This document shows, piece after piece, positions 1,229 to 22,289 of a DNA stretch of 26,796 nucleotides. This stretch comes from a virus. The position numbers and the translations under genes were made by a program. Location: positions 1 through 26,796 of the IMG/VR virus record IMGVR_UViG_3300047550_000540; one strand, written 5' to 3'. The notes beneath the pieces were generated by a model, which saw only the letters and a program-made list of their open reading frames with translations, did not search any database and had not been told where the DNA came from. Position 1 is the stretch's first letter. Every line of letters starts with the position of its first letter.

Positions 1229-1449
1229 TAGTATGCTGCTTTCTTAATCTTAAATGGTACAGCATCCTTCATAGCAGCCTCTACGGCTTCAATAGACTCA
1301 CTAGGAATGGTATTAACCTTATCCTTATGGTCACTTAGGATACCACGAACTACAGTATATAAACCTGGAGTTCGACGATCTGGATCGTTTAAATCATTAA
1401 TTAAACAATCTAATAATTTTTCTTGAATATTATTTAATTTTTCTTTCAT
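1228..1449 (-). CDS. Terminase small subunit, T7 gp18-like
   Basis: A 73-residue protein directly upstream of the large terminase, the same position as T7 gp18. The stretch NDLNDPDRRTPGLY followed by GILSDHKD resembles, from memory, the T7 gp18 region around ADLSDHERRSPQLYNAI, with the same spacing from acidic cluster to RR-S/T-P to LY to an HK pair. In this family the small subunit recognises DNA and regulates the large subunit at the start of packaging. It is a little shorter than T7 gp18 (89 residues). The start overlaps the upstream stop as ATGA, and its own stop overlaps the next ATG as TAATG. The identification rests on motif and position, not on an alignment. Confidence 0.82.
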   Translation of the reverse strand: MKEKLNNIQEKLLDCLINDLNDPDRRTPGLYTVVRGILSDHKDKVNTIPSESIEAVEAAMKDAVPFKIKKAAY

Positions 1450-2744
1450 AAATTTCCTTGTAAAATAATACCTGTTTGATTTCCTAATATACTTGAACCT
1501 GGAATATTACTTCCTAATGGCTGTGATTCATCAGATACCAAAAGTCCAGTTAAACGAGGATCGTCTTTCTTTACAATATCAATCTTAGTAGTGTTAAAAT
1601 CATTAAGTACTTTAAAATTCAATGTAACAATCAACACCTCTCCACTTCTATATGATTTATCTCCAGGTTCGCACAACCAACTATGCCTTGCATTTCCATC
1701 TTTTGGAATAGTTACTTCATTTATATTAGTTGCACCAACAAGCGGAAATCCGTTTACCATCCCTTTAGGTGCGCCTGTGGTGTTAATACTCATAAGCTCA
1801 AGTACAGTATTATCCCATACAAAGTTAGTGGAAACAGAAGCAATAAATTGTGGTTTTGTTTCTGGTTTGATCATTATCTTGACTGGAACTGTATCTCCTG
1901 CCTTAAACTTTGTAGTCGGTGCGGAAAGATAATGTGCAACCTTGTATATCGGTGGAGCACCAAACATAATTTGCTCACCTTCGGATCGTGTTTCACCAAG
2001 AACATTTGTACCAATGGTTGGACTGCCATCTACTTTGGTTGTAATGGTTGCACCTTGATAAGTTGTAGACGGGAGAATACGAATGAATGACCTTTGCGAT
2101 CCCCAAGAAGGAAGATAATAATCATCCTTGACTTTGAATTGCAAAGTACCTAACAAACGATATCCACCTTGCCACAAGTACCCATCAAAATTCCATTGAT
2201 AATATTGAGACTTAAGTGCTGGTATGCGGAGTTCTGGTGCTTTTAGAACTTCACCATGATATACTATAAGTCCATCACCAAGTGTAGTAATTTTTGTTTT
2301 ACTTGCATCCATTACAGTAGGATCAAATCCAATTCCATTTGCTCCAGCAGGCAATAACTCAAGACGAGTGTAATCATATTGAATCACAACATCGCTGCTG
2401 CGATATACACTCCACTTGTACACTTGTTTCTGAACTCCATTTACCATAAGTGTCAGAGGTGGAGTTGGTAATGGCATAGCGAGAATGTTTGCTGTTATAA
2501 TGGAATCTTTGAATCCATATTGACCATTCTTTACTCCACCATTCCAACTTTTTTGAGCCCATCCTGATTCTAAATATAAACGATATTTGATTACTGGATC
2601 AATATAATATGGTGTATAAACAAAAGCTGGTGGCACGGGAACCAATTGAATAGTTCCATCTGGTTGTAAAACTTTTGTTGGTGGAACAGTTTGTGCAAAA
2701 ACACTAGTAGAAATTAACAATAAAAATAAAATAATTAATCTCAT
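1446..2744 (-). CDS. Secreted protein with two cohesin-like beta-sandwich halves
   Basis: A 432-residue protein with a clear Sec signal peptide: MR, a hydrophobic run (LIILFLLLISTSV), then FA before QTV, so cleavage by signal peptidase I after about residue 17 is expected. The mature part seems to hold two related halves. Each has a line like VVIQYDYTRLELLP (first half) or STNFVWDNTVLELMSI (second half), followed later by a strand such as LLGTLQFKVKDD or VLIVTLNFKVLND. That pattern matches cohesin-type domains, in which a 'YDptvLel' strand precedes a 'g-L-a-x-i-x-F-k-v' strand. No enzymatic motif is seen. It sits between a lipoprotein and the small terminase, ATGA-coupled to the latter and to the lipoprotein stop. 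Export to periplasm or surface is well supported; the cohesin likeness is inference and the function is unknown. Confidence 0.75.
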   Translation of the reverse strand: MRLIILFLLLISTSVFAQTVPPTKVLQPDGTIQLVPVPPAFVYTPYYIDPVIKYRLYLESGWAQKSWNGGVKNGQYGFKDSIITANILAMPLPTPPLTLMVNGVQKQVYKWSVYRSSDVVIQYDYTRLELLPAGANGIGFDPTVMDASKTKITTLGDGLIVYHGEVLKAPELRIPALKSQYYQWNFDGYLWQGGYRLLGTLQFKVKDDYYLPSWGSQRSFIRILPSTTYQGATITTKVDGSPTIGTNVLGETRSEGEQIMFGAPPIYKVAHYLSAPTTKFKAGDTVPVKIMIKPETKPQFIASVSTNFVWDNTVLELMSINTTGAPKGMVNGFPLVGATNINEVTIPKDGNARHSWLCEPGDKSYRSGEVLIVTLNFKVLNDFNTTKIDIVKKDDPRLTGLLVSDESQPLGSNIPGSSILGNQTGIILQGNL

Positions 2745-3542: not shown

Positions 3543-6500
3543 TTATTCACTAGTAGCCGAAGAATTAAAACCAGAAGCATCTAATAATGATACTGAACCA
3601 TCTGTATTTAAAACTGATACTTTAATCCATAAAGTACTTGGTAAACCAATTCTTGTAAATTTTACAGCACATTCATTTCTACCAGAAATAAAACTATGTG
3701 TATATGCAGATCCAACAGTATTGGTAATAAATTCATCTGGACTATATCTATATATAGTTGTATCATAATTAGGAGAGTCATAAAAAAGACCTACTAAAGT
3801 TCCTGTTTTATTTAGAGTAAGTAAATCAGAAAAAGTCCAAGGACCTCCATCTATTTCAGTATCAGCAGTATTAGAACTATATTGTTTATAAACACCCGTT
3901 CTGTAGATTCTAGCATAACCTATAGATTTTAATCTAGGTATAATTATTCCTAAAGTTATTACATACCTAGTATCGCTTCCAATAGTTTCAATTGTTTCAT
4001 TTTTAACATATACCTTTAAATTGTTTTTGTTTAAGAAAGACATTACTCTATTAGGTCCTGGTCTTAATGTACCTTGCTGGAATATATCATTTAAGTTTGT
4101 TAATGCTGTAGTATTACTTGCATTTGTACTATCGGTAAATCCATACTCTAGTATAATACTAGATTTTAAAGAGTTTGGATAGTTTGTAGTATCTCTAAAA
4201 TAACTTGTTAGATTTTTCTTAAGTACAATTCTATATACATACTCATCTACAGGATCTGGTATAAAGTTAGTGGATTGAGAGAATAATTGATTTGCATCAA
4301 TATTTAATTGATGTGTTCCTACTAAATTATAAGAAGTATAATTTGGTTCAGTTCCACTTCTTATTTCATTTGGTCTTCTCCAGTATGGAAATAAACCTTT
4401 ATTACCACCACTTGAAATTCCAGTAGTAGATAAATTAGCATAAACGGGTAAATCAGTATCGTTACTATCTAACCTAAATAAAGTAAGAGCTGTTGATGAT
4501 GTAGTTAATCCGCGACATAACCAATCAATGTCGGCTTCATTAAATCTATGATAACTAAGGTCTGAACCTGGGTTTGGATCAGTGTCCCATTTTTGACACC
4601 AATCTGACCAATAAGCATCAGCTTTAAAATATTTACCTTGTCCGTCCGCTAAAATAGTACTAGTTGTATTTGTAGGTGTTCCTAATAATTTTGAATAACC
4701 TGTAAACCTTACACTAATATTTGATAAATTAGCATCTGTATCATATGGTCCACCAGTTCCAGGTACTCCTAAAGCTAGTGCAGCTTGGTTATAATAAATA
4801 ATTTGTTTTGGAATTTTCCACAAACACGATAAAGACGATCCACTAGTATCTTCTAATCTTTTAAATAATTTATTTGTTAATCCATTATATGTTGCTTTGA
4901 TAAAGTAACTTTTTTTAAGCCTTGATACGTTATCTTTACCTTTAACGGTACTAGTATTAAGATTTGAGGTTGGCCTAGATCCAGCAAAAGCTAAATCTCG
5001 TAAACCCATTAAATAAAAATCTCTATATGAACTAGCATCTTCATCACCAATTGCGGTTAGGGAGGTTATTAAACCATTTATATCTGGACTAGCTGGACTT
5101 ACTCCAGGTGCAAAATATTCAGTAGTTGAGTGAGCTGCTGGAAGTCCTGCAAGGCAAGATGTATGGCATTCTGGTATACTTAGGTAAAAACTTTTAATTC
5201 CATATGTTTGTACTTTAGAAGCATAACTTTGTTGTACGTTTGATTGATTTAAAGTTTGAAAAAAATAAGGGGATGTCCTATATTTTAAGGTTCCATTATT
5301 TACTCCATGATATTTTATTGGAGTTGGAGCACCTAAATTGTATCCAGCAGTGTTATATAATTCATCTGGATCATCCCAAAACATAGAAGGAGTATCACTA
5401 AGATAATCTAAACCACCCGAATCTTGTATATTAGTTCTATTTAATCCCAATTGCCAGTAAAGTTTTGCTTTTACTGGATTAGTAATATTAGCAGATAAAC
5501 CAACTAAAGCAGTGTTTACATAACTTAAGAATGTTTCTGGATCTTGACTGCCACTTTGATTTGGAGATGGGATTAATTCTTTTACTATATGATATACAGT
5601 TGGGGGATCGGTTAAAACCCATTTATTATTATTATTTTTAAACTTAGTTAAAAAACTTTTAGATGAAACATCTACAGAAGCTGCACCATTAGTATAAGAA
5701 GTGGTGGTTGCGTTGTTATAAAAAGTTCTATCTGCAAATATTAAATTTGCTGCTGATAAGTCCGCAATACTTGGACTTTTCAATATCCATTGACTAGATG
5801 CTGAACTATAACTTATAATATCATTATTACTAGGATTAGTAGCAGTAACATCAGATAGACTATCTAAAGTTCCTGAGAATGTATTAGTTACAAATTGAGT
5901 ACCATTCCAAACTAAAGCACTTCCTACTGAAAGACTTGATAAATTAAAAACTACTGGATTTGGACCACCTTGAATTAGAAATCCACTATAATTAAGATTA
6001 GTAAGTAATGACCAATTTGCATTTGGTGGTGGAGATGTACTTGTATGATTAGCAATACATATATATAGATTATTATTATAAGAAACAGTTTGACCAATTG
6101 TATAAGAAATTGGTATATTCCATGCAGGAAAAGAAGAGGAAGTTAATGGATAGAAATAATTTAATGTAGATCCTGCAAATTCTTTTTCTTGCACCATAAA
6201 TAGTAACTGATGCAATGAAGCATTTAGTTGTTGTGCCGTTAATTTAGCTCCATCATTAAACTTAAATAACATTCTTTGGGATGGTGTAGTTCTTCTAATA
6301 ACAACATATCCTGATGGTGCACTTGTAAAATTAATAGTACTTGTAGATGTATTAATAGTGTAATCAGTATTATAAATCTTAAGTGTTTCGGTTCCAGTTA
6401 AACTTGGTTTTGTATATACCAGTATTTGTTCATTAACAGGAAATTCACAAATCCACGCAATTGAACTAAATGAATAAGATGTTCCACTTACTGCATAGAC

Positions 6501-6560
6501 TATTTCTATGTTATTATTGTAATTTATATTTGCATTAGAACTATAACTATAACAGGCCAT
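3543..6560 (-). CDS. Tail fibre protein with T7 gp17-like N-terminal adaptor
   Basis: A 1005-residue tail fibre. Residues 1 to about 140 match the T7 gp17 N-terminal domain that attaches the fibre to the tail: VYAVSGTSYSFSSIAW, then a 'V-x-V-Y' strand, YTINTSTSTINFTSAPSG, VVIRRTTP, FNDGAKLTAQQLNASLHQ and finally a QE. After it come Ser/Thr/Asn-rich beta regions and a common phage-fibre motif (LDSLSDVTATNPSNNDII, then W). The distal ~750 residues are unlike anything I recognise and probably carry the receptor-binding part. At almost twice the length of T7 gp17 (553), it is a large fibre. It follows gp12 directly, with no gp14-gp16 genes between. The start is ATG at 6560 preceded by AAGGAGAAACC. 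Confidence 0.88.
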   Translation of the reverse strand: MACYSYSSNANINYNNNIEIVYAVSGTSYSFSSIAWICEFPVNEQILVYTKPSLTGTETLKIYNTDYTINTSTSTINFTSAPSGYVVIRRTTPSQRMLFKFNDGAKLTAQQLNASLHQLLFMVQEKEFAGSTLNYFYPLTSSSFPAWNIPISYTIGQTVSYNNNLYICIANHTSTSPPPNANWSLLTNLNYSGFLIQGGPNPVVFNLSSLSVGSALVWNGTQFVTNTFSGTLDSLSDVTATNPSNNDIISYSSASSQWILKSPSIADLSAANLIFADRTFYNNATTTSYTNGAASVDVSSKSFLTKFKNNNNKWVLTDPPTVYHIVKELIPSPNQSGSQDPETFLSYVNTALVGLSANITNPVKAKLYWQLGLNRTNIQDSGGLDYLSDTPSMFWDDPDELYNTAGYNLGAPTPIKYHGVNNGTLKYRTSPYFFQTLNQSNVQQSYASKVQTYGIKSFYLSIPECHTSCLAGLPAAHSTTEYFAPGVSPASPDINGLITSLTAIGDEDASSYRDFYLMGLRDLAFAGSRPTSNLNTSTVKGKDNVSRLKKSYFIKATYNGLTNKLFKRLEDTSGSSLSCLWKIPKQIIYYNQAALALGVPGTGGPYDTDANLSNISVRFTGYSKLLGTPTNTTSTILADGQGKYFKADAYWSDWCQKWDTDPNPGSDLSYHRFNEADIDWLCRGLTTSSTALTLFRLDSNDTDLPVYANLSTTGISSGGNKGLFPYWRRPNEIRSGTEPNYTSYNLVGTHQLNIDANQLFSQSTNFIPDPVDEYVYRIVLKKNLTSYFRDTTNYPNSLKSSIILEYGFTDSTNASNTTALTNLNDIFQQGTLRPGPNRVMSFLNKNNLKVYVKNETIETIGSDTRYVITLGIIIPRLKSIGYARIYRTGVYKQYSSNTADTEIDGGPWTFSDLLTLNKTGTLVGLFYDSPNYDTTIYRYSPDEFITNTVGSAYTHSFISGRNECAVKFTRIGLPSTLWIKVSVLNTDGSVSLLDASGFNSSATSE

Positions 6561-10248: not shown

Positions 10249-11574
10249 TTAGGCAACAGCGGTATAAGTTCCTTGAATTGCGCCACAAAGTTCTGGACGC
10301 AAGATACCAGCACCAGCCATAATGGAACTTACAGTAAAGTAAGTACCACGGCGAACATCTTTAACAGATTCAACCTTCATACCCTGAAGGCGTAGTGAAC
10401 AAATAGCTGACTTTTGCCAGATAAGAGCCTTAACTGGATTTAGAACAGCATTAGTTACAACAACACCAGCTGCGGTAATGGTAGTACCAGCTGATTGTTG
10501 GTGCCAGTTAAAGTCATACTTAGCATCACCAAGGTCAGTGATAACTGGAACAGTATCATTATTTGATAGACGACCAGTAGCAGTATCAAGACCAGAGATA
10601 GCTACGTTTATACCGCTATTGGTTTCAGAAGCAACCTGAGCATGGTCTAATTGTGCAAGGTGGTTGCTCTTAACAATCTTAACACCCATATACTCAAGGG
10701 TATCTTGGAGTGCAAACTTACTTTGATTTAGGCTAGCACCTAAACCACCAGCTTCGGATACACCACCGAAGAATGGACGACCAGCACCACCGACAAGACC
10801 AGTAGCATCACGAGCAATACCAAGAGCACGAATGTCATGGAAAGCTTGTGGAGATACAGCACAGTATACATCGGTAAGTGTAGCATCAATTTCAGAAAGA
10901 CGAACCATATAACGCTCTAAATAATCAAGAAGAAGTAGAGCAGCGTCAGTTCTTTCGGTTTGAGATGCACCACGAAGACCTAACATATTAAAGGCATTAG
11001 CTGGAGGAAGAACGGCTGGGGTATTGGTTGAAGCATTCATACCACCATAGTTTACACCAAATGGTGAACGAGCAACAGTAAATGCAGCCTTAGCAATCAT
11101 ACAAGCAATTTGCTTATCACGAATATAACTAAGTTGTAGACCAGCTTGGCGAGCTAGTTCTGAACGATAGTCCCACTGAGTGAGCATAAGATGAATATCA
11201 TCAAGTTCAAAGAATGCAGCCATTGGACGTTGATCTAGTGAAATATCAAACCAACCAGTACCACTTGCAGTAGAATCTCCAAGAAGTTCTTCGCCAGCTT
11301 TCCAGATACCCTTATGACCAATGGTTCCAGTAATTGGGAATCTTTTGGTAGTACCTGATTCAATGGTTTCTGTAGTAACCATTGGTTCAAAAAGATTATA
11401 TTGATCATAAGCGTTAATTACTTCACCTGACCAAATAGGAAGCCAATAGTTTTCAGTACCTACTGATGGTGAAGCTGAAGTAGATGCAGCGGCTGTACCA
11501 CCACCAATCCAGGAACCAGTAGTAGATGGAGTAGGATAAAGTTGTGCTGCTGTTAATGAATCACCTGAAGCCAT
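10249..11574 (-). CDS. Major capsid protein, T7 gp10-like
   Basis: A 441-residue capsid protein of the HK97 fold used by T7-like phages. Recognisable segments are GEVINAYDQYNLFEPMVTT (the 'E-v-x-x-a-f-x-x-x-s' helix near the N-terminus), RFPITGTIGHKGIWKAGEEL, FFELDDIHLMLTQWDYRSEL, and the C-terminal stretch AICSLRLQGMKVESVKDVRR. It assembles the icosahedral shell around the scaffold. Size (T7 gp10A is 345) and position between scaffold and gp11 support the call. There is no evident slippery site near the 3' end for a gp10B-like frameshift. A strong Shine-Dalgarno AAGGAG precedes the ATG and also forms one arm of an inverted repeat. A strong terminator follows. Confidence 0.95.
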   Translation of the reverse strand: MASGDSLTAAQLYPTPSTTGSWIGGGTAAASTSASPSVGTENYWLPIWSGEVINAYDQYNLFEPMVTTETIESGTTKRFPITGTIGHKGIWKAGEELLGDSTASGTGWFDISLDQRPMAAFFELDDIHLMLTQWDYRSELARQAGLQLSYIRDKQIACMIAKAAFTVARSPFGVNYGGMNASTNTPAVLPPANAFNMLGLRGASQTERTDAALLLLDYLERYMVRLSEIDATLTDVYCAVSPQAFHDIRALGIARDATGLVGGAGRPFFGGVSEAGGLGASLNQSKFALQDTLEYMGVKIVKSNHLAQLDHAQVASETNSGINVAISGLDTATGRLSNNDTVPVITDLGDAKYDFNWHQQSAGTTITAAGVVVTNAVLNPVKALIWQKSAICSLRLQGMKVESVKDVRRGTYFTVSSIMAGAGILRPELCGAIQGTYTAVA

Positions 11575-11672: not shown

Positions 11673-12599
11673 TTAACGATTTCTGTAGCCGTAACGAGAT
11701 GAATTAATAACCATTGCTTCTACTGCTTTTCTGTAGTTGGCATCAACGCGATACCTTGGATCTCTTAAAGCAGCTTGTTGTTCAGCAAAGCTTTGAAACA
11801 CCTGTACGGATTGTGGAACCTGTGAGGGATTGACCCGATTATCCATTGACCTAGGTTCCTGTGAAGGGGCCTTTGGTGGGTTTTGTTGCTCAAAGCGTGC
11901 CTTAAGTCCCAGGAGGACATTCTTATAGGCATTAGTCTGGAGAGCACGATTAGTGGCTGCAACTTCTTCAGCTGTTAGATTATCTTGAGCCCATTTGAAC
12001 ATGCGTTTAAGATTGTCATTACCTCCGACAACCGAAGCAGCATCATCCCATGATTGCTTGGCAAGGGCCTTCCGACCCTTGATTAACTGCTCAATAATGA
12101 CCTCATCAGCCCCCATCTTGGATTCAATCTCCTTGCGTGTAGCTGCACTTACGGCACCCGTTGAGTCAATTTCCTTGCCCCAACGAAGCCAATCTTCTGC
12201 ACTGACACGACTAGATGATGGAGGCTGTACAGGTGGAGCTGAAATCTTAAGCTCTTCATTAATACCTGACAAGTCCTCGACTGGCTCTGGCTTTGTCTGA
12301 GCCTGAGGTGAATCCCCTGTGTAATTAGGATTGCTCACCCCGTTTTGATTGTACTGCTTCTTAAGCGAAGCGATCTCCTGTCTTGCCTGAGTAAACCCCT
12401 TACGGGCTTCTACAAGACTATTAAACCAGTCATCAGCAGACTTAAAGTTACTTGGAATTCTCTGTCCTTGATCTTGGACATACTTCATGAACATAGCACG
12501 CTCATGGGTGATCTGTGGATCTTCAGTCTGAACTGGAGTGGCTAACACTGGCTGAGTCTCGACAGGTTGAGATTGTTCAGCATTAATTGGTTCTGTCAT
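11673..12599 (-). CDS. Capsid scaffolding protein, T7 gp9-like
   Basis: A 308-residue acidic, low-complexity protein immediately upstream of the capsid gene. The N-terminus is rich in Pro, Gln and Glu. The middle has helical segments such as DNLTAEEVAATNRALQTNAY followed by KNVLLGLKARFEQQ, matching the gp9 pattern in which short helices precede an 'a-L-x-x-l-x-x-x-y' line. The C-terminus RDPRYRVDANYRKAVEAMV ends in basic residues, as gp9 does ('dPrY-x-x-D-x-x-YR-x-x-V'). Scaffold drives prohead assembly and leaves before DNA entry. T7 gp9 is 307 residues, almost the same length. A Shine-Dalgarno AAAGGAGAG lies before the ATG. Confidence 0.9.
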   Translation of the reverse strand: MTEPINAEQSQPVETQPVLATPVQTEDPQITHERAMFMKYVQDQGQRIPSNFKSADDWFNSLVEARKGFTQARQEIASLKKQYNQNGVSNPNYTGDSPQAQTKPEPVEDLSGINEELKISAPPVQPPSSSRVSAEDWLRWGKEIDSTGAVSAATRKEIESKMGADEVIIEQLIKGRKALAKQSWDDAASVVGGNDNLKRMFKWAQDNLTAEEVAATNRALQTNAYKNVLLGLKARFEQQNPPKAPSQEPRSMDNRVNPSQVPQSVQVFQSFAEQQAALRDPRYRVDANYRKAVEAMVINSSRYGYRNR

Positions 12600-12626: not shown

Positions 12627-12740
12627 TTATTTAGAACGAGTCTTAGGTTTCTTTATTAGTGGTTTTTTTGTATCTGGCTTAGGGCCAGTCCTATTCTTTA
12701 CATAATCCAACTCTTCTTTGGTTGTCTTATTTATTTTCAT
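12627..12740 (-). CDS. Tiny lysine-rich protein (37 aa) upstream of scaffold
   Basis: Read from the sequence: it begins MKINKTTKEELDYVKNRTG and ends KKPLIKKPKTRSK. Nine of its 37 residues are Lys in the last half plus linker, with no cysteine and no hydrophobic segment. Its ATG overlaps the TGA of the Met-rich gene as ATGA, and it fills the gap to the scaffold leader. The evidence that it is translated is the coupled start and the tight packing. Function unknown; a nucleic-acid or scaffold-binding role is only a guess from charge. Confidence 0.55.
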   Translation of the reverse strand: MKINKTTKEELDYVKNRTGPKPDTKKPLIKKPKTRSK

Positions 12741-12910
12741 TTCTTCTTTGCCTTCTTGCTAGTCTTCTTCTTAGCTGGCTTTTTCTTCTTTGGCATTGGT
12801 GTTTCTTCCTCAGGCATTGGCATCTGAGCACCCATACCCATTTGTGATTCCATTATTCCTGGACCCATTCCAGTTGGCATTCCCATACCCATCATTGGCA
12901 TTCTTGACAT
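12737..12910 (-). CDS. Met-rich N-terminus, Lys-rich C-terminus small protein (57 aa)
   Basis: Read from the sequence. The first ~40 residues are made largely of Met, Gly and Pro (MSRMPMMGMGMPTGMGPG, then MGMGAQMPMPEEE), with about 14 methionines. The last ~18 are nearly all Lys and Ala (KKKKPAKKKTSKKAKKK). Such a split composition suggests a flexible linker with a polybasic tail that could bind DNA, RNA or the acidic scaffold protein. It lies between the last beta-rich paralogue and the scaffold. Its TGA overlaps the next ATG (ATGA). I recall Met/Gly/Pro-rich small proteins near phage capsid genes but no known function. Confidence 0.6.
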   Translation of the reverse strand: MSRMPMMGMGMPTGMGPGIMESQMGMGAQMPMPEEETPMPKKKKPAKKKTSKKAKKK

Positions 12911-12917
12911 ACTAACC

Positions 12918-13388
12918 TCATTTCTTAAGTTTATTCCAAATAGCTAAACCAGTACGATGATAAGCTCTTTCTATTTTTGTAACCGAATTATTACCACTTA
13001 TATCTCCACCAGCAATGTAATCTAGTTGTTTATGAGTATCATTATACCCAGTAAATATTGTATCATATCCATTTAATGCTGTATCACTTATAGCAGTACT
13101 TCTTGATACAAGTGTATATGCTGCTGAAGCTAAGTCTCCAAGTTGCGGTAAACTAGCAAAATCTAAAGAAGATGTTTGATTTACTGGAAGTGAAAAAGTA
13201 TGAAATAAACATCTAAGTCTATTGTTTGGTTTAGATGTTGTTGGATCTATACCAAAAATAGTAGTTCCATATGCATTAGTAACATTAAAACCATTTGCAG
13301 ATAAATTAAATGAACTATTTCCTAGTGTTGGATCAATATAAGCTCCAAAAGCTAAAGCTACACCTTGATGAAATGAAATTGCTGGCAT
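12918..13388 (-). CDS. Short paralogue of the beta-rich surface protein family (156 aa)
   Basis: A 156-residue protein that shares only its ends with its two upstream neighbours. The N-terminus PAISFHQGVALAFGAYI parallels the ISFPQ-x-F-x-L-x-KG-x-x-Y starts next door, and the C-terminus YHRTGLAIWNKLKK parallels YQITGLHLLKKLK. The central part is different and lacks the lectin-like WYANGNQ strand. The conserved ends with a variable middle suggest a common attachment or assembly part carrying different cargo. It starts 11 bases after the previous gene's stop, with AGGAAT as ribosome binding site. Probably a virion protein; function unknown. Confidence 0.7.
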   Translation of the reverse strand: MPAISFHQGVALAFGAYIDPTLGNSSFNLSANGFNVTNAYGTTIFGIDPTTSKPNNRLRCLFHTFSLPVNQTSSLDFASLPQLGDLASAAYTLVSRSTAISDTALNGYDTIFTGYNDTHKQLDYIAGGDISGNNSVTKIERAYHRTGLAIWNKLKK

Positions 13389-13395
13389 TTGTTAT

Positions 13396-13420
13396 TCCTT
13401 TATTTAAGTTTTTTAAGTAA
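13396..13420. repeat. Gene-boundary repeat, copy 1
   Basis: A 25-base segment identical at 24 positions to the one at 14572-14596. It covers the last codons (Leu-Lys-Lys-Leu-Lys), the stop codon and the ribosome binding region for the next gene. The match is consistent with tandem duplication of neighbouring genes, or with selection on the same protein tail. Confidence 0.7.
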
Positions 13421-14566
13421 ATGTAAACCTGTTATTTGGTAATCAATGTCTGTTTCTGTAACTTCTGTATCAGTATCTTCAAATCTATTTATAGGAACAT
13501 TAATACTTGATAAAGATCTGAATACAGCAGCTTCTTCGACACATATTGTAAAAGAACCTGGAGGAACTACAATAGATCCTCCTTTTATACTCATAACACA
13601 AGCATACATTGGGTTTTCAGTATTTGGATTAGTATTGCCGTCAAAAAAATGACCATTAGCTACTAAAGTTGAAATAGATGTTGTAGCAACTTGATTTCCA
13701 TTAGCATACCAAGTAATGGTTCCATTATTAAAAGTTACTTGAAGTTTATTAGAACCAAAAATACTAAGACCTGTGTTATGTGCAAAACAAAATGCAGTGT
13801 CCGATGTATTAACTTCATTACTTGCAATAACAACACAGTGCCAAGTAAAAGTTGTATTATTTAATCTAATACCAATAAATCCAAATCCTTTTGCTGTTCC
13901 TATAAATATAGGTAAAGGAACAGAACCTACATTAGCGTTTATACTTTGAGAATGAGCAAATCTATATCCAACATAAAATTGTGTATGATATCCTAATGGT
14001 AAGTTACTAGTAGGATCTATTGTATTAAAATTAAAATTTTCTACATATCCTTTAAAATATACAGAAGTAAAATCAGGGTCTTGTGGTTGAAGATATCCTC
14101 CAACAGTACCAGATTGTTCAGTAATTTCTGTTCCCGATCTTTGGTATTTAACATCATGAATTAAAGATCTATTAAGAAGACTAGTAGTTGGCCCACATGA
14201 TATTTTTAATACTTTTCCGTCTGAAAACACAGAACCACCCGTTGGTGCATTTCCATGTCTTTGTATTTGATACCAATTTCCTAAAGATTTTCCATTAGTC
14301 CATTTAATAGCTGTTTCAACTAAGTTTCCACCATATTTAAATATTAATCCAGCACTATCGGTATTCTTTGAATTACATAGAGAATAAACTGGTAAAGAAA
14401 CATTATAAAGGTTAGGAGCTGGAGTTTGAAAAGCTGGTTGTGTAAAAGAGTATCCAGAAGAATTTAATAAGGTTTTGATTGGTAGTCCAGTAAAACAAGC
14501 ATTAAATCTATAATGTGCTCCTTTATTTAAAGCAAATGCTTGTGGAAAAGAAATAATTCTAGACAT
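13400..14566 (-). CDS. Beta-rich, lectin-like paralogue B (388 aa)
   Basis: A 388-residue protein clearly related to the gene next upstream. Both begin with ISFPQ and KG-x-x-Y, both have a KTLL-x-(S/P)-x-G-(Y/F)-x-F segment near residue 35, both have IFKYGGNL, both have a GxITWYANGNQ strand in the C-terminal third, and both end in TG-x-x-LLKKLK. The ITWYANGNQVA strand next to an LQVTFNNG strand is typical of concanavalin/laminin-G-like sandwiches that bind sugars, so a surface or receptor-binding role is plausible. No signal peptide and no enzyme motif. Likely a virion decoration, head-fibre or tail-associated protein; the precise role is unknown. Confidence 0.8.
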   Translation of the reverse strand: MSRIISFPQAFALNKGAHYRFNACFTGLPIKTLLNSSGYSFTQPAFQTPAPNLYNVSLPVYSLCNSKNTDSAGLIFKYGGNLVETAIKWTNGKSLGNWYQIQRHGNAPTGGSVFSDGKVLKISCGPTTSLLNRSLIHDVKYQRSGTEITEQSGTVGGYLQPQDPDFTSVYFKGYVENFNFNTIDPTSNLPLGYHTQFYVGYRFAHSQSINANVGSVPLPIFIGTAKGFGFIGIRLNNTTFTWHCVVIASNEVNTSDTAFCFAHNTGLSIFGSNKLQVTFNNGTITWYANGNQVATTSISTLVANGHFFDGNTNPNTENPMYACVMSIKGGSIVVPPGSFTICVEEAAVFRSLSSINVPINRFEDTDTEVTETDIDYQITGLHLLKKLK

Positions 14567-14571
14567 ATAAA

Positions 14572-14596
14572 TCCTTTATTTAAGCTTTTTAAGTAA
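14572..14596. repeat. Gene-boundary repeat, copy 2
   Basis: Second copy of the 25-base boundary segment, differing from 13396-13420 by one C/T change. It spans the end of paralogue A and the ribosome binding region of paralogue B. Confidence 0.7.
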
Positions 14597-15757
14597 CTGT
14601 ATTCCCGTATTGTGATAATATAATTCATTATTATCTAAAGTATTTAATGTACTTGAAAAAGTAAATGGATATTCTTTATACTGTTTTGGATATACAATAA
14701 ATTCTTCTATAGTAATACTTTGTTTATTTGGTGGAACATTGGTTGGATTTGCTAGTGTAGATTTCATTTCTCTAAAGAAAACATAAGGTACTATAATTTC
14801 ATCTAAACTAGCATTAGCATAGGAAGTTATATTTTGCTGTGCTATTTGATTTCCATTAGCATACCAAGTAATTATACCATTGTTACTAATATTTACTTTT
14901 AATTCTTGACTAATATGTGCATTTAAGTTTGTATTTTGACTAAACCATACAACTGTAGCAACAGGAGTATCAAGATTAACTGTATGTATTATAGCCCACC
15001 AAGTGTATGATCCATTAGTAAAAAATGGCATAAAACCATAAAGTGCACCATTTAATCTCACAGTTGGACCAGTTCCTGGATTATAATTAAGAAAATTTCC
15101 TTCTCTGTGATCTCGACCTAAGCCAACACCAATTCGATAATCTCCATAAGAATTAACAGGATTTCCTTCTAATGGATTAACAAAACCTTTAAAATATATA
15201 GTAATATCTAAACCATTTACCTGATCTACCAGAATAAACTCACCTAATAATGGAGGAGTATAAGTATATTGATTAATATCACCAACACTGTTGGTAAATG
15301 AAGCAGTTAAACATCCTCTATTATGAAATCCTAATTCAGAAGTTAATACTAAATTTTTTCCATCTAGTTTATATGTTGAAGTTATACCACCGTCAACTGC
15401 ATTACTAGTTAACATTAATAGCATATCTCCTGCAAAAATTCGTGGACGTGTTGGGAATACAGTATCTTGTTTGTTTTTAATTACTGGATAATAAGTTAAC
15501 TTATCTTTTTTACCTAAGTTTCCACCATATTTAAATATTAGTTTAGAATCAAAAACATTAGTAGAATTACTAGTGGTATAGATTGTATTATCTGAATGTA
15601 TTCCTTGAACATAGTTAGTTAGTGGTACTGGATTAAAGGTAAATCCACCAGGACTTAATAATGTTTTATAGTTAATTGGTTTATTTGCTTTATTATACAG
15701 ATAGTTTACACCTTTAGTTAATGAAAATATTTGTGGAAATGATATAATTGTAGACAT
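14576..15757 (-). CDS. Beta-rich, lectin-like paralogue A (393 aa)
   Basis: A 393-residue protein beginning IISFPQIFSLTKGVNYLYN and ending TGIQLLKKLK, with the same internal landmarks as paralogue B: KTLLSPGGFTF near residue 35, LIFKYGGNL near 75, and ELKVNISNNGIITWYANGNQ near 290. The middle of the two proteins has diverged widely, while ends and landmarks are kept. Lack of a signal peptide and placement in the structural operon indicate a virion protein. The fold is predicted to be a carbohydrate-binding type beta sandwich. AGGAAAT precedes the ATG at 15757, eight bases after the previous stop. Confidence 0.8.
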   Translation of the reverse strand: MSTIISFPQIFSLTKGVNYLYNKANKPINYKTLLSPGGFTFNPVPLTNYVQGIHSDNTIYTTSNSTNVFDSKLIFKYGGNLGKKDKLTYYPVIKNKQDTVFPTRPRIFAGDMLLMLTSNAVDGGITSTYKLDGKNLVLTSELGFHNRGCLTASFTNSVGDINQYTYTPPLLGEFILVDQVNGLDITIYFKGFVNPLEGNPVNSYGDYRIGVGLGRDHREGNFLNYNPGTGPTVRLNGALYGFMPFFTNGSYTWWAIIHTVNLDTPVATVVWFSQNTNLNAHISQELKVNISNNGIITWYANGNQIAQQNITSYANASLDEIIVPYVFFREMKSTLANPTNVPPNKQSITIEEFIVYPKQYKEYPFTFSSTLNTLDNNELYYHNTGIQLLKKLK

Positions 15758-15765
15758 AATATTTC

Positions 15766-16275
15766 CTAACGTTGATATTCAAATACTGTAAAACAATCTG
15801 CAATAGATCCTAAAGCAGAACCCAGTATAGCAGGATAATGTTCAGTAACTTTAGTAATATCTGTTAAACTAATTGCTTCAATAGCAGATAAAGGTACATC
15901 AATGATTGCAGGAGCATTTGGATTAAAAGCTTTAAAAGCCTCACTATTCCACAAAGTTCTTGTCATATACATTCTAAAAGGAATACCAATTGGTATTAAT
16001 ACTGGAATTACAACAGCGGCAGTAATTTCTGTTATAGTAACTGTCCAAGTTATGCTTAGCCGAGTAAAAGTAGCTTTTCCAGTTAAAGTAGCATCACTTA
16101 CAGAATACATACAGTATTGTTTTGAAATTGGATTAAACAGTTCTGGTATTACAGTAGGTGGAAAACCTGATGTATAATTAACTACAGTTCCTGCTTGATT
16201 TACTAAACTAGGAGCACTTGCACCTAGAGATCCACTAAATACTTGACTAATTGGTTTTAGTTTATAGAATATCAT
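15766..16275 (-). CDS. Beta-rich putative virion protein (169 aa)
   Basis: I place the start at the ATG at 16275, which overlaps the TGA of the preceding gene (ATGA), instead of the upstream GTG at 16284. The product begins MIFYKLKPISQVFSG and is rich in Val, Ile, Thr and Ser, with strand-like lines such as FTRLSITWTVTITEITAA. A patch of AAVVIPVLIPIGIPF is hydrophobic but interrupted by prolines, so a membrane helix is unlikely. It shares neither the ISFPQ start nor the KLK end of the downstream paralogues. It sits in the inserted surface-protein block. Function unknown. Confidence 0.65.
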   Translation of the reverse strand: MIFYKLKPISQVFSGSLGASAPSLVNQAGTVVNYTSGFPPTVIPELFNPISKQYCMYSVSDATLTGKATFTRLSITWTVTITEITAAVVIPVLIPIGIPFRMYMTRTLWNSEAFKAFNPNAPAIIDVPLSAIEAISLTDITKVTEHYPAILGSALGSIADCFTVFEYQR

Positions 16276-16589
16276 AGTGACCACTTAAAAAAAGAAACTT
16301 GTGTTACTGTTGAAGCAATACTACCAACTGTTCCAGTAACTAATACAGAAGTACCTGGAACTATTGTTGTATATAACCTAACAAATTTTCCAATTGGAAT
16401 TCCTGTAATTTGGGTTGTACCGCCAGAAGCAGCTTTAAAAGCAAGAATACCATATTGTTCTGATAAGTTAGCAGCAGCTATAGTATTTCCTGCTATAATG
16501 TGTGTGGTTCCTACTGGTATACTTGTTTCAGTAGCAGATAAAGTTCCTGTAGAACCAAGAAATTCAAATCGTCCATTCTCTGGTATCAT
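16272..16589 (-). CDS. Small beta-rich protein (105 aa)
   Basis: A 105-residue protein dominated by Thr, Gly, Ile, Val and Ser (STGTLSATETSIPVGTTHII, then GTSVLVTGTVGSIASTVTQV), with a single aromatic end FFKWSL. The composition suggests a compact all-beta domain, as in capsid decoration or fibre-tip proteins, but I recognise no family. It is joined by ATGA overlaps on both sides: to a 21-aa peptide before it and to the 169-aa protein after it. That pattern argues for co-translation as one assembly set. Confidence 0.65.
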   Translation of the reverse strand: MIPENGRFEFLGSTGTLSATETSIPVGTTHIIAGNTIAAANLSEQYGILAFKAASGGTTQITGIPIGKFVRLYTTIVPGTSVLVTGTVGSIASTVTQVSFFKWSL

Positions 16590-17711: not shown

Positions 17712-20393
17712 TCATAAACTATATATAATAACTAATCCAGAACCGCCTAAACCACCTGTACCACCGCTAGTAGATGACCCTGCTCCTCCTCCACCTCCAC
17801 CAGATCCGTAGATTCCAGCACCTCCTGCTCCTCCAGCTCCTGCGTTATTACCACCTCCTCCAGAGCCTCCTACATTACCCCAATCATGGCTAGTTCCTCT
17901 TGTTGCAGTAGCAGCGGGTCCAGCCCCACCTCCAGCAGTTCCTGCTGTAGTGTTTGAGTCGTTGAATGGATACATACCAAAACAGTTACCACCAGCGGAA
18001 TGTGTATTAGAAGAATTGATTCCACCTCCACCACCTCCTCCATATGGTGAAAAAGATAAACCACCAGAAGAAGATGTTTGATTTCCTATAGAACCTGTAC
18101 CGCTTGCTCCGTTTCCTCCTGCACCACCAGTATAACCTTGTGCTCCTCCTCCACCAGCTGTTGAAGATGTTGATCCAACAGCTCCTCCTGATCCACCTAA
18201 TCCGTTAGCTCCCCAACATATTCTAGTTGTTCCTGCTATTCCATTAAAAGATGGGCTAGTAACCGTAGTAACTCCTCCTGATCCACCATTACTACCATTA
18301 GATCCGTTTGTTACTGCTCCACCGCCTTGGGAACCTCCAGTACCTATTGTAATTGTTAAAGGAGAAGCTAAAGTACTTACTAAATACGTTGCTATATTAA
18401 CTGAACCTCCACCTCCTCCTGCTCCTCCGCATCTATTGGAAGATGTAGAATTGCTTAGGCAACCTCCGCCTCCACCGCCTCCTCCACCAACGCAAATAAT
18501 TCTTAACATATTTGCTCCAGATGGAATTGTAAAAGAACCAGAACTTGTAAATACTGTTCTTTGTGGAGTAAATCCTCCGCTGATTGAATTAGCAACCCAT
18601 GCAGTACCGTTCCATTGTGGTACTTGGTTTAAACTTGCTCCGCTTTGTGTTATATTGCTAAGGGTGTGCGTATGTGATGATGCGGCTATACCAGCTGATG
18701 ATAGTGATTTGTTTTCCCATCTTAGAGTAGAATTATTCCATTGTAATAAATCTCCGTTAGCTACGGTATTTACATAAACATCACTGAGTTCATCTAGTTC
18801 GTTATAATTATGGACTTTTACAAATATAGAGCCTGCTCCTCCTCCTACATTACCTTTAACAACCCAACCAACAAAGGTTCCATGATTAGGAGCAGTAGGT
18901 AAACTTGTTCTCCATGCTCCTGCTGTAGTTTCTGACAGGTATATTCTTTGACCATCTGAATATCCAGTAGTAGTTACTCCATGTAATAAACCATAAGTAA
19001 CTACATAACCATCTGCATTATTATTTATATCTTCAGCAGCTAATCCAATTGTTGGAGCTGATGTTGCTTCAGCATTTGCTAAAGCCTTAGTTACTTTTAA
19101 TCTATCTACTCCTTGTGATCCACTAACATAAACAATATCTCCCTTGAGGATATTAACACCAGATTGATTTCTGACATGTTGATATACTGCAGTTCCAAGA
19201 GGAACATGAACAGTTGAGGATAATTGATATACAATTGTATTGTGGTCTGGGTCCCATGCTAATTCTCCCATACTTAGTGTTGGAGAAGCTACTGGCATAG
19301 TAAAGTTAAGTTGATCTACTGTTGCCTCATTGACAATAATAGCAGTAGGTAATCCCACAGTAATAACTGTTCCTACTGTAGTAACATCCACTTCATTTGC
19401 TGTACCAACTATAGTAGTTCCTGGAGTTACTATTCCAGTATCTTTTAATTTTAAACTAAAGAAATCTAAATTAAAAGAAATATCTTGGGGATTATTAGTA
19501 TTATTATTTTCAATATTAATACCACTAGTTAAATGTGAAGTTGGTATATTTGAAATAATAACATCTTCAGCTCCACCGTCCATAGTAAATCCAACACTAC
19601 TAGAAGATTTTTTTTGAATCTTTAAAATATACCATGTATTGGTTGTAAGTGTTGCATATTGATTAGAGAATACTCCAGAAGTGTCTTCAACCCTAGTATA
19701 AATTTTAATTCCCGTAACATCTTGTGTTATACGGAAAAAGATACCTTCAGTATATGAATCTACATTATCAAATAATCCTAATTTAATTTCATAATCATCA
19801 TTATATGGAAGTAGTTTAATTATAAAATAAGTAGTATTAAAATCACTAAAGGTGAAAGAATCCGTTGAAGGATCATTAACTAAAGAAAGATAACCATATC
19901 CATTTCCAGCTGGTAGTTTTATCTCTACAACACCAATATGATTTGTTTCTGAGTTAGCTTCAAATACCTGTAAAAATGTTGGAGTAAGTAATTGACTGGA
20001 GGTTGGTCGTGGTCCTCCAAATAACGGATAAGGAGTTACAGTACCTGACTCATCACCATTGCTTTGATTAATAAAGTTATCCCATAGAATAATTGGTTGA
20101 TCTGGATCTGTTGGATCTATTCCACCCCCACCACTTGGATTATTCTCAAGATCTGTAATTCTACTTTCCCACGATAAAGGATTACTTAGGTCTTTTTCAA
20201 CCATAAATTCAGAATAATTACTAACAGTAGAAAGACTTACTGATTGTAGTTTATTAGAAATATCAGAAAAATTTTGAGAAGAATATAGAATATGAGATGA
20301 TAAAGTTTTATTAGTAGAATTATCTACACTTCCAGTAAAAGTTTCTAAGTTTTTATTTAATCTTCTTGCAAATGCAGATTGTTTTCTATCCAT
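17712..20393 (-). CDS. Second fibre: HxH motif and glycine-rich adhesin C-terminus (893 aa)
   Basis: An 893-residue fibre without the gp17 adaptor. Order: a helical N-terminus with polar repeats; a beta-sandwich region with TWYILKIQKKSSSS around residue 270; a common phage-fibre section (VYQHVRNQSGVNILKGDIVY, then GYSDGQRIYLSE); the motif LDELSDVYV...GDLLQWN; a SSHTHTLSN metal-binding HxH site near 575; then from about residue 611 a 280-residue glycine-rich domain opened by FTSSGSFTIPSG and VGGGGGGGGG. That C-terminus is like the polyglycine-sandwich adhesins of T-even gp38, which define host range, and like 'glycine-rich domain' fibres generally. It sits between portal-side genes and scaffold, an unusual place for a podovirus fibre. 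TAATG overlap sets the start. Confidence 0.87.
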   Translation of the reverse strand: MDRKQSAFARRLNKNLETFTGSVDNSTNKTLSSHILYSSQNFSDISNKLQSVSLSTVSNYSEFMVEKDLSNPLSWESRITDLENNPSGGGGIDPTDPDQPIILWDNFINQSNGDESGTVTPYPLFGGPRPTSSQLLTPTFLQVFEANSETNHIGVVEIKLPAGNGYGYLSLVNDPSTDSFTFSDFNTTYFIIKLLPYNDDYEIKLGLFDNVDSYTEGIFFRITQDVTGIKIYTRVEDTSGVFSNQYATLTTNTWYILKIQKKSSSSVGFTMDGGAEDVIISNIPTSHLTSGINIENNNTNNPQDISFNLDFFSLKLKDTGIVTPGTTIVGTANEVDVTTVGTVITVGLPTAIIVNEATVDQLNFTMPVASPTLSMGELAWDPDHNTIVYQLSSTVHVPLGTAVYQHVRNQSGVNILKGDIVYVSGSQGVDRLKVTKALANAEATSAPTIGLAAEDINNNADGYVVTYGLLHGVTTTGYSDGQRIYLSETTAGAWRTSLPTAPNHGTFVGWVVKGNVGGGAGSIFVKVHNYNELDELSDVYVNTVANGDLLQWNNSTLRWENKSLSSAGIAASSHTHTLSNITQSGASLNQVPQWNGTAWVANSISGGFTPQRTVFTSSGSFTIPSGANMLRIICVGGGGGGGGGCLSNSTSSNRCGGAGGGGGSVNIATYLVSTLASPLTITIGTGGSQGGGAVTNGSNGSNGGSGGVTTVTSPSFNGIAGTTRICWGANGLGGSGGAVGSTSSTAGGGGAQGYTGGAGGNGASGTGSIGNQTSSSGGLSFSPYGGGGGGGINSSNTHSAGGNCFGMYPFNDSNTTAGTAGGGAGPAATATRGTSHDWGNVGGSGGGGNNAGAGGAGGAGIYGSGGGGGGAGSSTSGGTGGLGGSGLVIIYSL

Positions 20394-20692
20394 TATCCTT
20401 TACACTTTCTACCCTTAGGACAACTTTTTTTAGATCCTCCAGGCCCAGCCCAAAGATTCTTACAGGCCCAGTATCTAGCTGTTAGTTTATTATCTGCAGA
20501 GTCGCAGTTATGCCTAGCTTTGAAAGATTTACGAGCTTCCGAACTATAGTTGTGACCATAACCTGTTGCTCCAAAATGAATAATCTTTTCTTGTCCATTA
20601 GCACATGCTTTAACCATCTTTTTCTTACCAGGAGATGTTGATGGTCTAGGTTTATTACAAGGCATTGATTTCTTATCTGGTCTTTTAGCCAT
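20393..20692 (-). CDS. Cys-rich basic protein of a widespread phage family (99 aa)
   Basis: Start chosen at the ATG at 20692: the bases GGAGG that look like part of an earlier ATG codon frame (20707) make an ideal Shine-Dalgarno for it, and it overlaps the portal stop. Product begins MAKRPDKKSMPCNKPRPSTS and contains MVKACANGQEKIIHFGATGY, SFKARHNCDSADNK, ARYWACKNLW and a KSCPKGRKCKG tail. I remember this 'PCN-K-P-R ... VKAC-x-x-G-x-EK-x-I-x-FG ... FkARH-C ... YWaCK-x-W' pattern from small proteins of many marine phages. Its six cysteines and histidines could bind zinc. It is coupled to the glycine-rich fibre through TAATG. Function unknown. Confidence 0.82.
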   Translation of the reverse strand: MAKRPDKKSMPCNKPRPSTSPGKKKMVKACANGQEKIIHFGATGYGHNYSSEARKSFKARHNCDSADNKLTARYWACKNLWAGPGGSKKSCPKGRKCKG

Positions 20693-22289
20693 TTGGTTGT
20701 CCTCCAATTAATCCCATAACTTGGTCTTGAATTTCTGGTGGTATATTTGCCCCTCCAGTTTGTAATAAATCTTGTTGAGCAGCACCACCCATAGCATTGG
20801 CTGCAGCACCAGCAAACATTTTTTGCATTTCCATTTGTTGTTGGGCTTTTGCCATTTCCATTTTTTCTTGTTTGATTTCTTCAGCACTTCGTACCCAGTT
20901 ATTTGCGTCAAATCCCATGGATGTAATTAAGGCTCTAGCATAAGATTCCCACTTAAAAGAAGAAGCGGCTTCTGGTGGAAGATTGCGAACCATTTCACCC
21001 ATCTGTAGAAGTTTAGTAATATCGGATTCACGACTAAGGGATTGAAGTCCAGTTAAAATCTCTATATTAAGAATACCATTTTCTTCGTCAAACTGATCTG
21101 CCATTCGTTGATCAATTTCATTATTCTCAATCATTAAATAAATAGTACGTCTAATAATTGGAACCATAAAATCTCTAGCAATAGAAGAGAATGTGCCACC
21201 TAGAATTGTTTCTAACTCATTTCCTACAGCCCTTACAGCCGTAGCTGTTACACGATCTCCTGTTGGCATAGCGGCAGTCTGTAGTAAAAATCCTTGTCCT
21301 ACTTCTTTACGCATTGTATCTACAGCAGAAGCACATGCTTGTAATTGTGGATTAATAGTTTCACCTGGAGTAATTACAAACACATCTGCTTTTCTAGCAC
21401 CAACCCATTGACCATTCTGAGCTCCTGACAAATCATCTATTTCAGTAATTCCTGCAGGATCTACTCCCATAAAGAAGGTAGAACCAGCAGCCATTCCTTG
21501 AATCATAGCCCGACTATAGGACTCTAAGGTTCTAATGTCTGAGTAAATATCCTCAACATGTGATCTACCATAATCTTCCCCAGCAACACTAGCCCAGCGC
21601 AAAATAATATAAGGTAAAACAGTATAATAACCTCGGTCGATAATTTGACCATCCAATTCTTTTTCAACTTCCCACTTATCGTCTTCTGTTTTTGAGACTC
21701 TAATATATACCGTTTTAAAACCTGTTTGTTTTTCTTCACCCGATAAGAAATCATAGGCACTGGCTGGCTCCTCATTACTTGGTGATATAAACTCTAGATA
21801 AATAAATTCTTTAATTACTCCATTAACATCGCGTCTAACAACAAACTGATCAAGTCTTATAAGCCTAAATGAAAAATCATTTTCCATTACAATAAGAGCA
21901 TCGCCAACAACAATTAAATGTTGCATAGCTAAATACGATATCTCTCTTAAATTGTTTGAAATAAGTTTTCTATATACTTGGAATGATAACTTACTAAGAT
22001 ATTCTGATATTTCTGCAGTAGGTTCTCTACCATTTTTTAATCCAAAGGTAAAGAATGGTGTATCATTTAAAGGAATAAGTACACTAAGGATTTTACTGGC
22101 AAGTGAAGTAACTCCTCTAGATTGAACAGATGAATAAGTCTGAAAAAGATTATCTTCTCCAGTTAAAGATTGATATGGTAGTATTGTAGGAACAGTAAGA
22201 GCTGAACAAGCTCTTGATTTATTAAGTTTGGATTCTCTTTTTGCATTAAGAGTCCACCACCTATCTTTAATGGTTTTTTCAGAATTCAT
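20685..22289 (-). CDS. Portal (head-tail connector), T7 gp8-like
   Basis: A 534-residue portal protein. Landmarks of the gp8 family are the N-terminal YQSLTGEDNLFQTYSSVQSR, GVTSLASKILSVLIPLN (helix after the 'R-G-v-x-x-L-A' turn), FILE-like strand FIYLEFISPS, VGQGFLLQTAAMPTGDRVTA followed by TAVRAVGNELETILG, and an acidic helical C-terminus rich in Gln/Met (QQQMEMQKMFAG). It forms the twelve-fold ring through which DNA enters and to which gp11 binds. T7 gp8 is 536 residues, nearly the same. AAGGAGAGAC precedes the ATG at 22289. Confidence 0.95.
   Translation of the reverse strand: MNSEKTIKDRWWTLNAKRESKLNKSRACSALTVPTILPYQSLTGEDNLFQTYSSVQSRGVTSLASKILSVLIPLNDTPFFTFGLKNGREPTAEISEYLSKLSFQVYRKLISNNLREISYLAMQHLIVVGDALIVMENDFSFRLIRLDQFVVRRDVNGVIKEFIYLEFISPSNEEPASAYDFLSGEEKQTGFKTVYIRVSKTEDDKWEVEKELDGQIIDRGYYTVLPYIILRWASVAGEDYGRSHVEDIYSDIRTLESYSRAMIQGMAAGSTFFMGVDPAGITEIDDLSGAQNGQWVGARKADVFVITPGETINPQLQACASAVDTMRKEVGQGFLLQTAAMPTGDRVTATAVRAVGNELETILGGTFSSIARDFMVPIIRRTIYLMIENNEIDQRMADQFDEENGILNIEILTGLQSLSRESDITKLLQMGEMVRNLPPEAASSFKWESYARALITSMGFDANNWVRSAEEIKQEKMEMAKAQQQMEMQKMFAGAAANAMGGAAQQDLLQTGGANIPPEIQDQVMGLIGGQPNG

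Follow-up and report, generated by a model that had tools for sequence, protein, structure and literature searches.

Fixed ends and exchanged middles in a protein family encoded between the portal and scaffold genes of a T7-like phage clade

The stretch analysed here (the window) is the 26,796-base IMG/VR virus record IMGVR_UViG_3300047550_000540, which on its minus strand has the late gene order of a T7-like phage, running from a nucleotide kinase, an exonuclease and a ribonucleotide reductase through the portal, a variable block, the scaffold and the capsid to tail tubes A and B and a fibre with a T7-type anchor. The subject of this study is a tandem array of three genes in the variable block, all on the minus strand, which encode proteins of 156, 388 and 393 amino acids (aa) with like ends. 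The 156-aa protein (12918..13388) is the product of the gene that closes the array on its scaffold side, and homologues of 150-167 aa are found directly upstream of the scaffold gene in relatives. The 388-aa protein (13400..14566) has homologues of its own and, from weak model and fold matches, a probable concanavalin A (ConA)-like beta-sandwich in its middle. The 393-aa protein (14576..15757) is its full-length paralogue. The nearest cultured phages are distant, with identities of ∼30% for the portal and ∼25% for the capsid protein.

The similarity of the ends was assessed against all other protein pairs of the window. For the C-terminal 25-mers, the three pairs among the 156-, 388- and 393-aa proteins rank first to third of 276 (scores 46, 45 and 38; next 32), and these scores were reached by 0-1 of 5000 shuffles. 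At the N-terminus, the 388/393 pair ranks first and the 156/388 pair second (69 and 31; next 27); the similarity of the 156- and 393-aa N-termini alone is not significant, its score being reached by 463 of 5000 shuffles. A preliminary description of this DNA had singled out these three open reading frames (ORFs) for their like ends, and the C-terminal ranking confirms it. All three proteins carry I[ST]xxQxx[AS]L within the first ∼26 residues and [HQ]x[TS]Gx5K[LI]K at the C-terminal end of the ORF, and all three genes lie in the portal-scaffold block of a T7-like phage with the capsid protein of the clade; they thus belong to the end-signature family, which is defined in this analysis by the N-motif, the C-motif and a locus between portal and scaffold. 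The N-terminal signatures, scored with the family profile, are PAISFHQGVALAFGAY in the 156-aa protein (13338..13385, minus strand; 39.1 bits, E=4e-11), IISFPQAFALNKGAHY in the 388-aa protein (14510..14557, minus strand; 38.5 bits) and IISFPQIFSLTKGVNY in the 393-aa protein (15701..15748, minus strand; 34.8 bits). The corresponding C-terminal signatures are ERAYHRTGLAIWNKLKK (12921..12971, minus strand; 45.8 bits, E=3.4e-13), TDIDYQITGLHLLKKLK (13403..13453, minus strand; 38.4 bits) and a segment ending in YHNTGIQLLKKLK (14579..14629, minus strand; 36.9 bits).

Outside the ends, the three proteins differ in their relationships. The 156-aa protein has no match to the 388- and 393-aa proteins beyond the ends, and a profile-profile comparison of the 156 and 388 families aligned the last 24 columns only. 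The 388- and 393-aa proteins align over their full length (28% identity, 418 columns, E=1e-28) and, on this alignment, are diverged paralogues rather than partners with swapped middles. Because these two are full-length homologues, a middle that really differs is found within the window in the 156-aa protein alone; the earlier view of three proteins with the same ends and different middles holds for the 156-aa protein and fails for the 388/393 pair.

The co-occurrence of the two ends was then examined across IMG/VR, where L-numbers (L001 etc.) denote the loci of relatives on contigs. When only the C-terminal signature, written as a degenerate DNA pattern, was scanned for and the N-terminus was left out, 36 contigs were returned, in 30 of which the motif forms the C-terminus of ORFs of 88-1299 aa. 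Six contigs (L023, L039, L041, L043, L046 and L052), with neither a signature-ended ORF nor a capsid homologue, were set aside as chance matches. Among the distinct C-signature ORFs of at least 100 aa, 34 of 36 also start with a relaxed form of the N-signature, I[ST]xxQxxAL; of the remaining two, one (L026) is truncated at its 5' end and one (L050, MSFPQMYALAYG) is a variant. The N-signature occurs in 2 of 326 ORFs that lack the C-signature; the two are themselves relatives, one a 388-type gene with a frameshift (L003), the other a diverged paralogue (L049). The Fisher p value for this co-occurrence is 6e-43, to be read as descriptive rather than as a strict probability because ORFs of related phages are not independent. 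In the reciprocal N-terminal scan, 23 matches end in the C-signature; a match cut by its locus (L093), once completed with more DNA, gives a 459-aa protein that also ends in the C-signature (GGDINGSGFLTQTEKNYHNTGVKIVSKLKK), and the complete matches without the C-signature sit in contigs without the capsid gene, bar one frameshifted homologue. Homologues of the window proteins thus keep the signatures, and the end-signature pattern is real and extends well past the window. The frameshifted 388-type gene (L003, 1697-2698) leaves a 333-aa ORF without the C-terminal signature and reflects either an assembly error or a real inactivation.

Codon identity provides a view of the level at which the ends are conserved. 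At identical end residues, codons agree at 10 of 17 positions for the 388/393 pair (8.8 expected from codon usage) and at 7 of 13 for the 156/393 pair (6.9 expected); the 156/388 pair is somewhat higher, at 11 of 15 (7.1 expected). As codon agreement is about what codon usage predicts, selection on the amino acids is the simplest reason for the conservation. These counts bear on an alternative in which the ends have no common protein function and it is chiefly their DNA that is kept, to serve as recombination joints when cassettes are exchanged. Tandem genes with like ends and exchanged middles would suit such joints, as would the short near-identical DNA stretches common to the 388 and 393 genes; yet these stretches lie partly in the middle and not at the ends alone, the codon agreement at the ends is mostly at expectation (the 156/388 pair excepted), and conservation is seen at the amino-acid level across diverged genomes. 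Checked by codon identity, recombination joints were mostly unsupported as an explanation, and we regard them as very improbable.

The end-signature family is restricted to one phage clade and one locus. The major capsid protein of the window (10249..11574, minus strand; PHROG 267, E=4e-23), which serves as the clade marker, is present in all 16 newly found signature contigs tested (63-81% identity) and in none of the six chance-match contigs. The longest signature contigs reach 65-69 kilobases (kb), and when the N- and C-terminal profiles were run over the full length of five contigs of 68-69 kb, clear members were confined to the portal-scaffold block. The borders of this block are well conserved: the portal gene fixes it upstream (20685..22289, minus strand; PHROG 449, E=2e-104; 76-91% identity among relatives) and the scaffold gene downstream (11673..12599, minus strand; PHROG 1052, E=3e-26, and PF05396; 69-88%). 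The end-signature genes always lie upstream of the scaffold gene.

The block is otherwise variable, with recognisable adhesin parts: Mtd_N with collagen repeats (L061), the carbohydrate-binding module (CBM) CBM_5_12 (L042) and, in the window, Gly-rich tips, as on the 893-aa protein encoded in its upstream part (17712..20393, minus strand; PF21722, E=4e-9, and tail/minor tail PHROGs). RCC1 repeats are found in a member of the family itself, of 1299 aa (L047). The 388-type homologues in IMG/VR contigs are followed immediately downstream by a 157-aa homologue of the 156-aa protein. A 393-type gene was not found adjoining the 388-type gene in L001-L004, and L024 and L035 carry a similar paralogue of 390/392 aa. 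Elsewhere among the relatives, the 388-type gene is replaced, in its slot upstream of the 156-type gene, by one for an unrelated protein of a ∼1050-aa family (L009 431-3565, L010 2804-5989, L011 2855-5989, L012 343-3498, L016 2807-5989, L020 4614-7838, L022 5992-9126). Three members of that family share 34-52% overall identity, and most end in a near-invariant QAKRTLSRYKTKILQ, another fixed C-terminus.

Comparison of the middles revealed both divergence and exchange. Trimmed of their ends, they form 14 clusters (BLASTP, E≤1e-4). Over their whole length, members of 115-136 aa can be aligned with the 156-aa protein at 27-33%; such small members have merely diverged, so that the really different cargoes are fewer than 14. 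In a 464-aa protein (L037), residues 1-31 (59%) and 371-464 (32%) match the 156-aa protein, and in a 547-aa protein (L029) the first 30 and the last ∼80-100 residues match the 156 type; from these alignments, both are clearly 156-type proteins with hundreds of residues inserted. In addition, a cassette of ∼88 aa, inserted just before the C-terminal block in 388-type proteins of 470-476 aa, recurs in a 195-aa member (L056) and a truncated 271-aa member (L022), with 40-56% identity between frames (carriers: L033 7605-9035, L024 4606-6033, L061 13103-14518, L022 9137-9949 and L056 4454-5041). The cassette and the insertions are direct evidence of exchange within a fixed frame. The proposal of fixed ends around swapped middles accordingly holds across the phage clade, where the ends recur around differing middles, and does not apply to the 388/393 pair of the window. 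Part of the ∼88-aa cassette also resembles a 265-aa neighbour in L061.

An explanation by ordinary paralogy would see here an old family whose middle has diverged or gained insertions, the ends being the core of the fold with no docking role. The 388/393 pair, as plain paralogues, and the end-to-end alignment, with gaps, of the 115-167-aa members agree with this. It does not readily account for 388-type and 156-type proteins having nothing detectable in common but the ends, or for one cassette in differing frames, which needs exchange rather than divergence. We consider ordinary paralogy distinctly unlikely.

Searches of family and structure databases placed the ends in no described group. No Pfam, PHROGs or PDB family covers the two ends, in agreement with the initial remark that the C-terminal signature matched no described family, and no paper describing such an end-signature family was found in a literature search. 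The pattern of fixed ends and exchanged middle appears to be undescribed. The 388-, 393- and 156-aa proteins had no tblastn match in 50,697 phage records (E≤10), nor did the 1299-aa relative from L047 (E≤0.001), and a PDB sequence profile search with ten 388-type proteins found no relative. A dockerin or EF-hand reading of the C-terminal block, suggested by eye by GGDxNxxGxLSxxE in several members, was rejected: seven C-terminal pieces of 66 aa gave no PF00404 or EF-hand match at E≤10, although 4 of 25 members contain a canonical EF-loop pattern.

The middle of the 388-aa protein was compared with known folds through a low-confidence AlphaFold model. Its central beta-sandwich (∼residues 96-352; 13511..14281, minus strand) matches ConA-like or jelly-roll folds, with a best Foldseek E=2.7e-3 in the PDB, VIA-align Z values of up to 8.0 and a best Foldseek E=1e-5 in BFVD, where several targets are named ConA-like lectin/glucanase. 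As a lead from this model, the middle of the 388- and 393-aa proteins is probably a ConA-like sandwich. The C-terminal end is predicted to be helical in the weak models of both the 156- and the 388-aa protein.

With the co-occurrence of both ends and the exchange of middles established, we lean slightly towards a reading in which the proteins are external modules docked by their shared ends and bearing exchangeable, probably host-binding cargo. The three genes would then encode one family of virion-associated proteins, each made of a fixed frame and a cargo. Some 15 residues at the N-terminus (I[ST]xxQxxALxxGxY) and ∼18 at the C-terminus (ExxYHxTGLxLxKKLK), each stretch probably helical, would fold back together into one small base, and this base would dock the protein at a common site on the virion. 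The position of the genes among head genes makes a site near the head, neck or portal the most likely. The middle would be an exchangeable module displayed from the base, probably binding a receptor or glycan. In the 388- and 393-aa proteins it would be the putative ConA-like sandwich; one relative has RCC1 repeats and others have the mobile ∼88-aa cassette. Each genome would encode such proteins in tandem, one to three in number, through duplication (388/393) and through middles being inserted or replaced. The helical base, the docking, the virion location and the receptor binding are what we infer from these patterns; the adhesin-like company of the variable block (Mtd_N with collagen, CBM_5_12, Gly-rich tips, RCC1) was counted in favour of docking.

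Several observations weigh against such docked, host-binding modules. In some genomes the sole member is small (115-167 aa) and would hardly accommodate a receptor-binding domain. The N-terminal anchor of T7 tail fibres (PF03906) and a CBM are already present in the main tail fibre of the window (1005 aa, 3543-6560), so the end-signature proteins need not be receptor binders. The AlphaFold models have a mean predicted local distance difference test score (pLDDT) of 38 for the 388-aa protein, too low for docking arguments, and of 36 for the 156-aa protein, which is unusable. Scans of 84,980 bacterial and archaeal genomes for a host with the A3 and capsid profiles gave no match.

Among the closest known arrangements is that of podovirus branched receptor-binding proteins (RBPs), built on a T7/K1F anchor and known from K1-5, G7C and KP32, in which a short conserved peptide on the second RBP is proposed to dock to a common site (PMC6872550). 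This peptide is a hepta- or undecapeptide in K1-5 and spans 29 residues in KP32 (PMC6872550). Both systems place a short conserved peptide on otherwise different proteins, and among branched RBPs there are sometimes truncated members reduced to the peptide. There, conservation is at the N-terminus, whereas here both ends are conserved with the cargo between them, and the genes, up to three in tandem, are found in the portal-scaffold interval and not beside the tail fibre. No match in sequence was found, and PF03906 had no match in the three window proteins. It is conceivable, though doubtful, that the family represents a new two-ended display frame in which both termini would form one base on the head, neck or portal region, mounting one to three interchangeable adhesins at once, apart from the main tail fibre, as a modular host-range system.

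The ends may instead be an oligomerisation or folding module, such as trimerisation helices, for the assembly of appendages that are docked by another protein. C-terminal chaperone or trimerisation modules kept across differing tailspikes are a known theme (PMC3742443), as is the KP36-type build of anchor, variable centre and C-terminal chaperone (PMC6872550), and the predicted helicity of the C-terminal end fits. Tailspikes with an N-terminal anchor and a C-terminal chaperone, such as the endosialidase ICA domain, likewise combine fixed ends with an exchanged middle (PMC3742443, PMC6872550). The ICA domain folds, trimerises and self-cleaves, whereas the conserved C-terminal block here is just ∼18-35 residues long and gives no such profile match; the C-terminal pieces and the whole proteins matched no Pfam or PHROG chaperone family, including the ICA/Peptidase_S74 type. 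Moreover, the N-terminus is equally conserved, which folding alone would not need. We judge this alternative unlikely.

A further possibility is that the ends are a packaging signal that sends diverse internal proteins into the head via the scaffold, the middles being ejected effectors. The precedent is the set of T4 internal proteins, which are diverse and share only a short capsid-targeting sequence (PMC3012670). The position of the genes immediately upstream of the scaffold gene agrees with packaging, and variable small proteins would suit arms-race cargo. The T4 signal, however, is N-terminal and at one end only, whereas both ends are conserved here. In addition, the recognised middles look adhesin-like (RCC1, ConA-like), members are as large as 1299 aa, and neighbouring genes of the block encode tropism proteins. 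We hold packaging to be quite improbable. All the readings considered here are not exclusive of one another, and the likelihoods attached to them overlap.

The genomic setting distinguishes the clade from marine T7-like podoviruses (pelagiphages, cyanophages and roseophages). Both have a T7-like set with portal, scaffold, capsid, tail tubes and fibre, the portal being ∼30% and the capsid ∼25% identical between them; the window clade differs in its extra variable block between portal and scaffold, in contigs of up to 65-69 kb and in its end-signature proteins, those tested having no match in the 50,697 phage records. Other small genes surround the array. A Met/Lys-rich ORF under the usual ORF cut-off (12740-12910, minus strand; MSRMPMMGMGMPTGMGPG...KKKKPAKKKTSKKAKKK) directly follows the 156-aa gene. 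Upstream of the array, a 105-aa gene (16272-16589, minus strand) starts with a MIPxxGSxNxLxSSG-like line, and proteins of 264-270 aa at the same place in relatives (L016 2001-2795, L020 3791-4603, L061 12284-13081) start similarly; together they perhaps form another family with a common N-terminus and differing lengths. A cohesin domain is predicted in a 432-aa protein of the window (1446-2744, minus strand; PF00963, 26.3 bits, cut-off 24.1) and in L001 (26.7 bits; gene 3924-4568). Dockerin type I matches occur in L024/L080, L061 and L079 (E=3e-8 to 5e-8) and, more weakly, in L042 and L001 (genes at L024 7185-7916, L061 11095-11904, L079 8866-9627 and L042 6859-7491). These domain matches suggest a possible phage-encoded cohesin-dockerin assembly, on which a literature search found no paper.

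The two ends of the family provide a simple sequence tag for fast-exchanging, probably host-recognising modules in an uncultivated phage clade far from its nearest cultured relatives. They point to a docking scheme in which both termini, and not the N-terminus alone, would be fixed. If this docking is true, domains placed between the ends would appear on the virion, and the natural inserts would be a ready set of binding domains.

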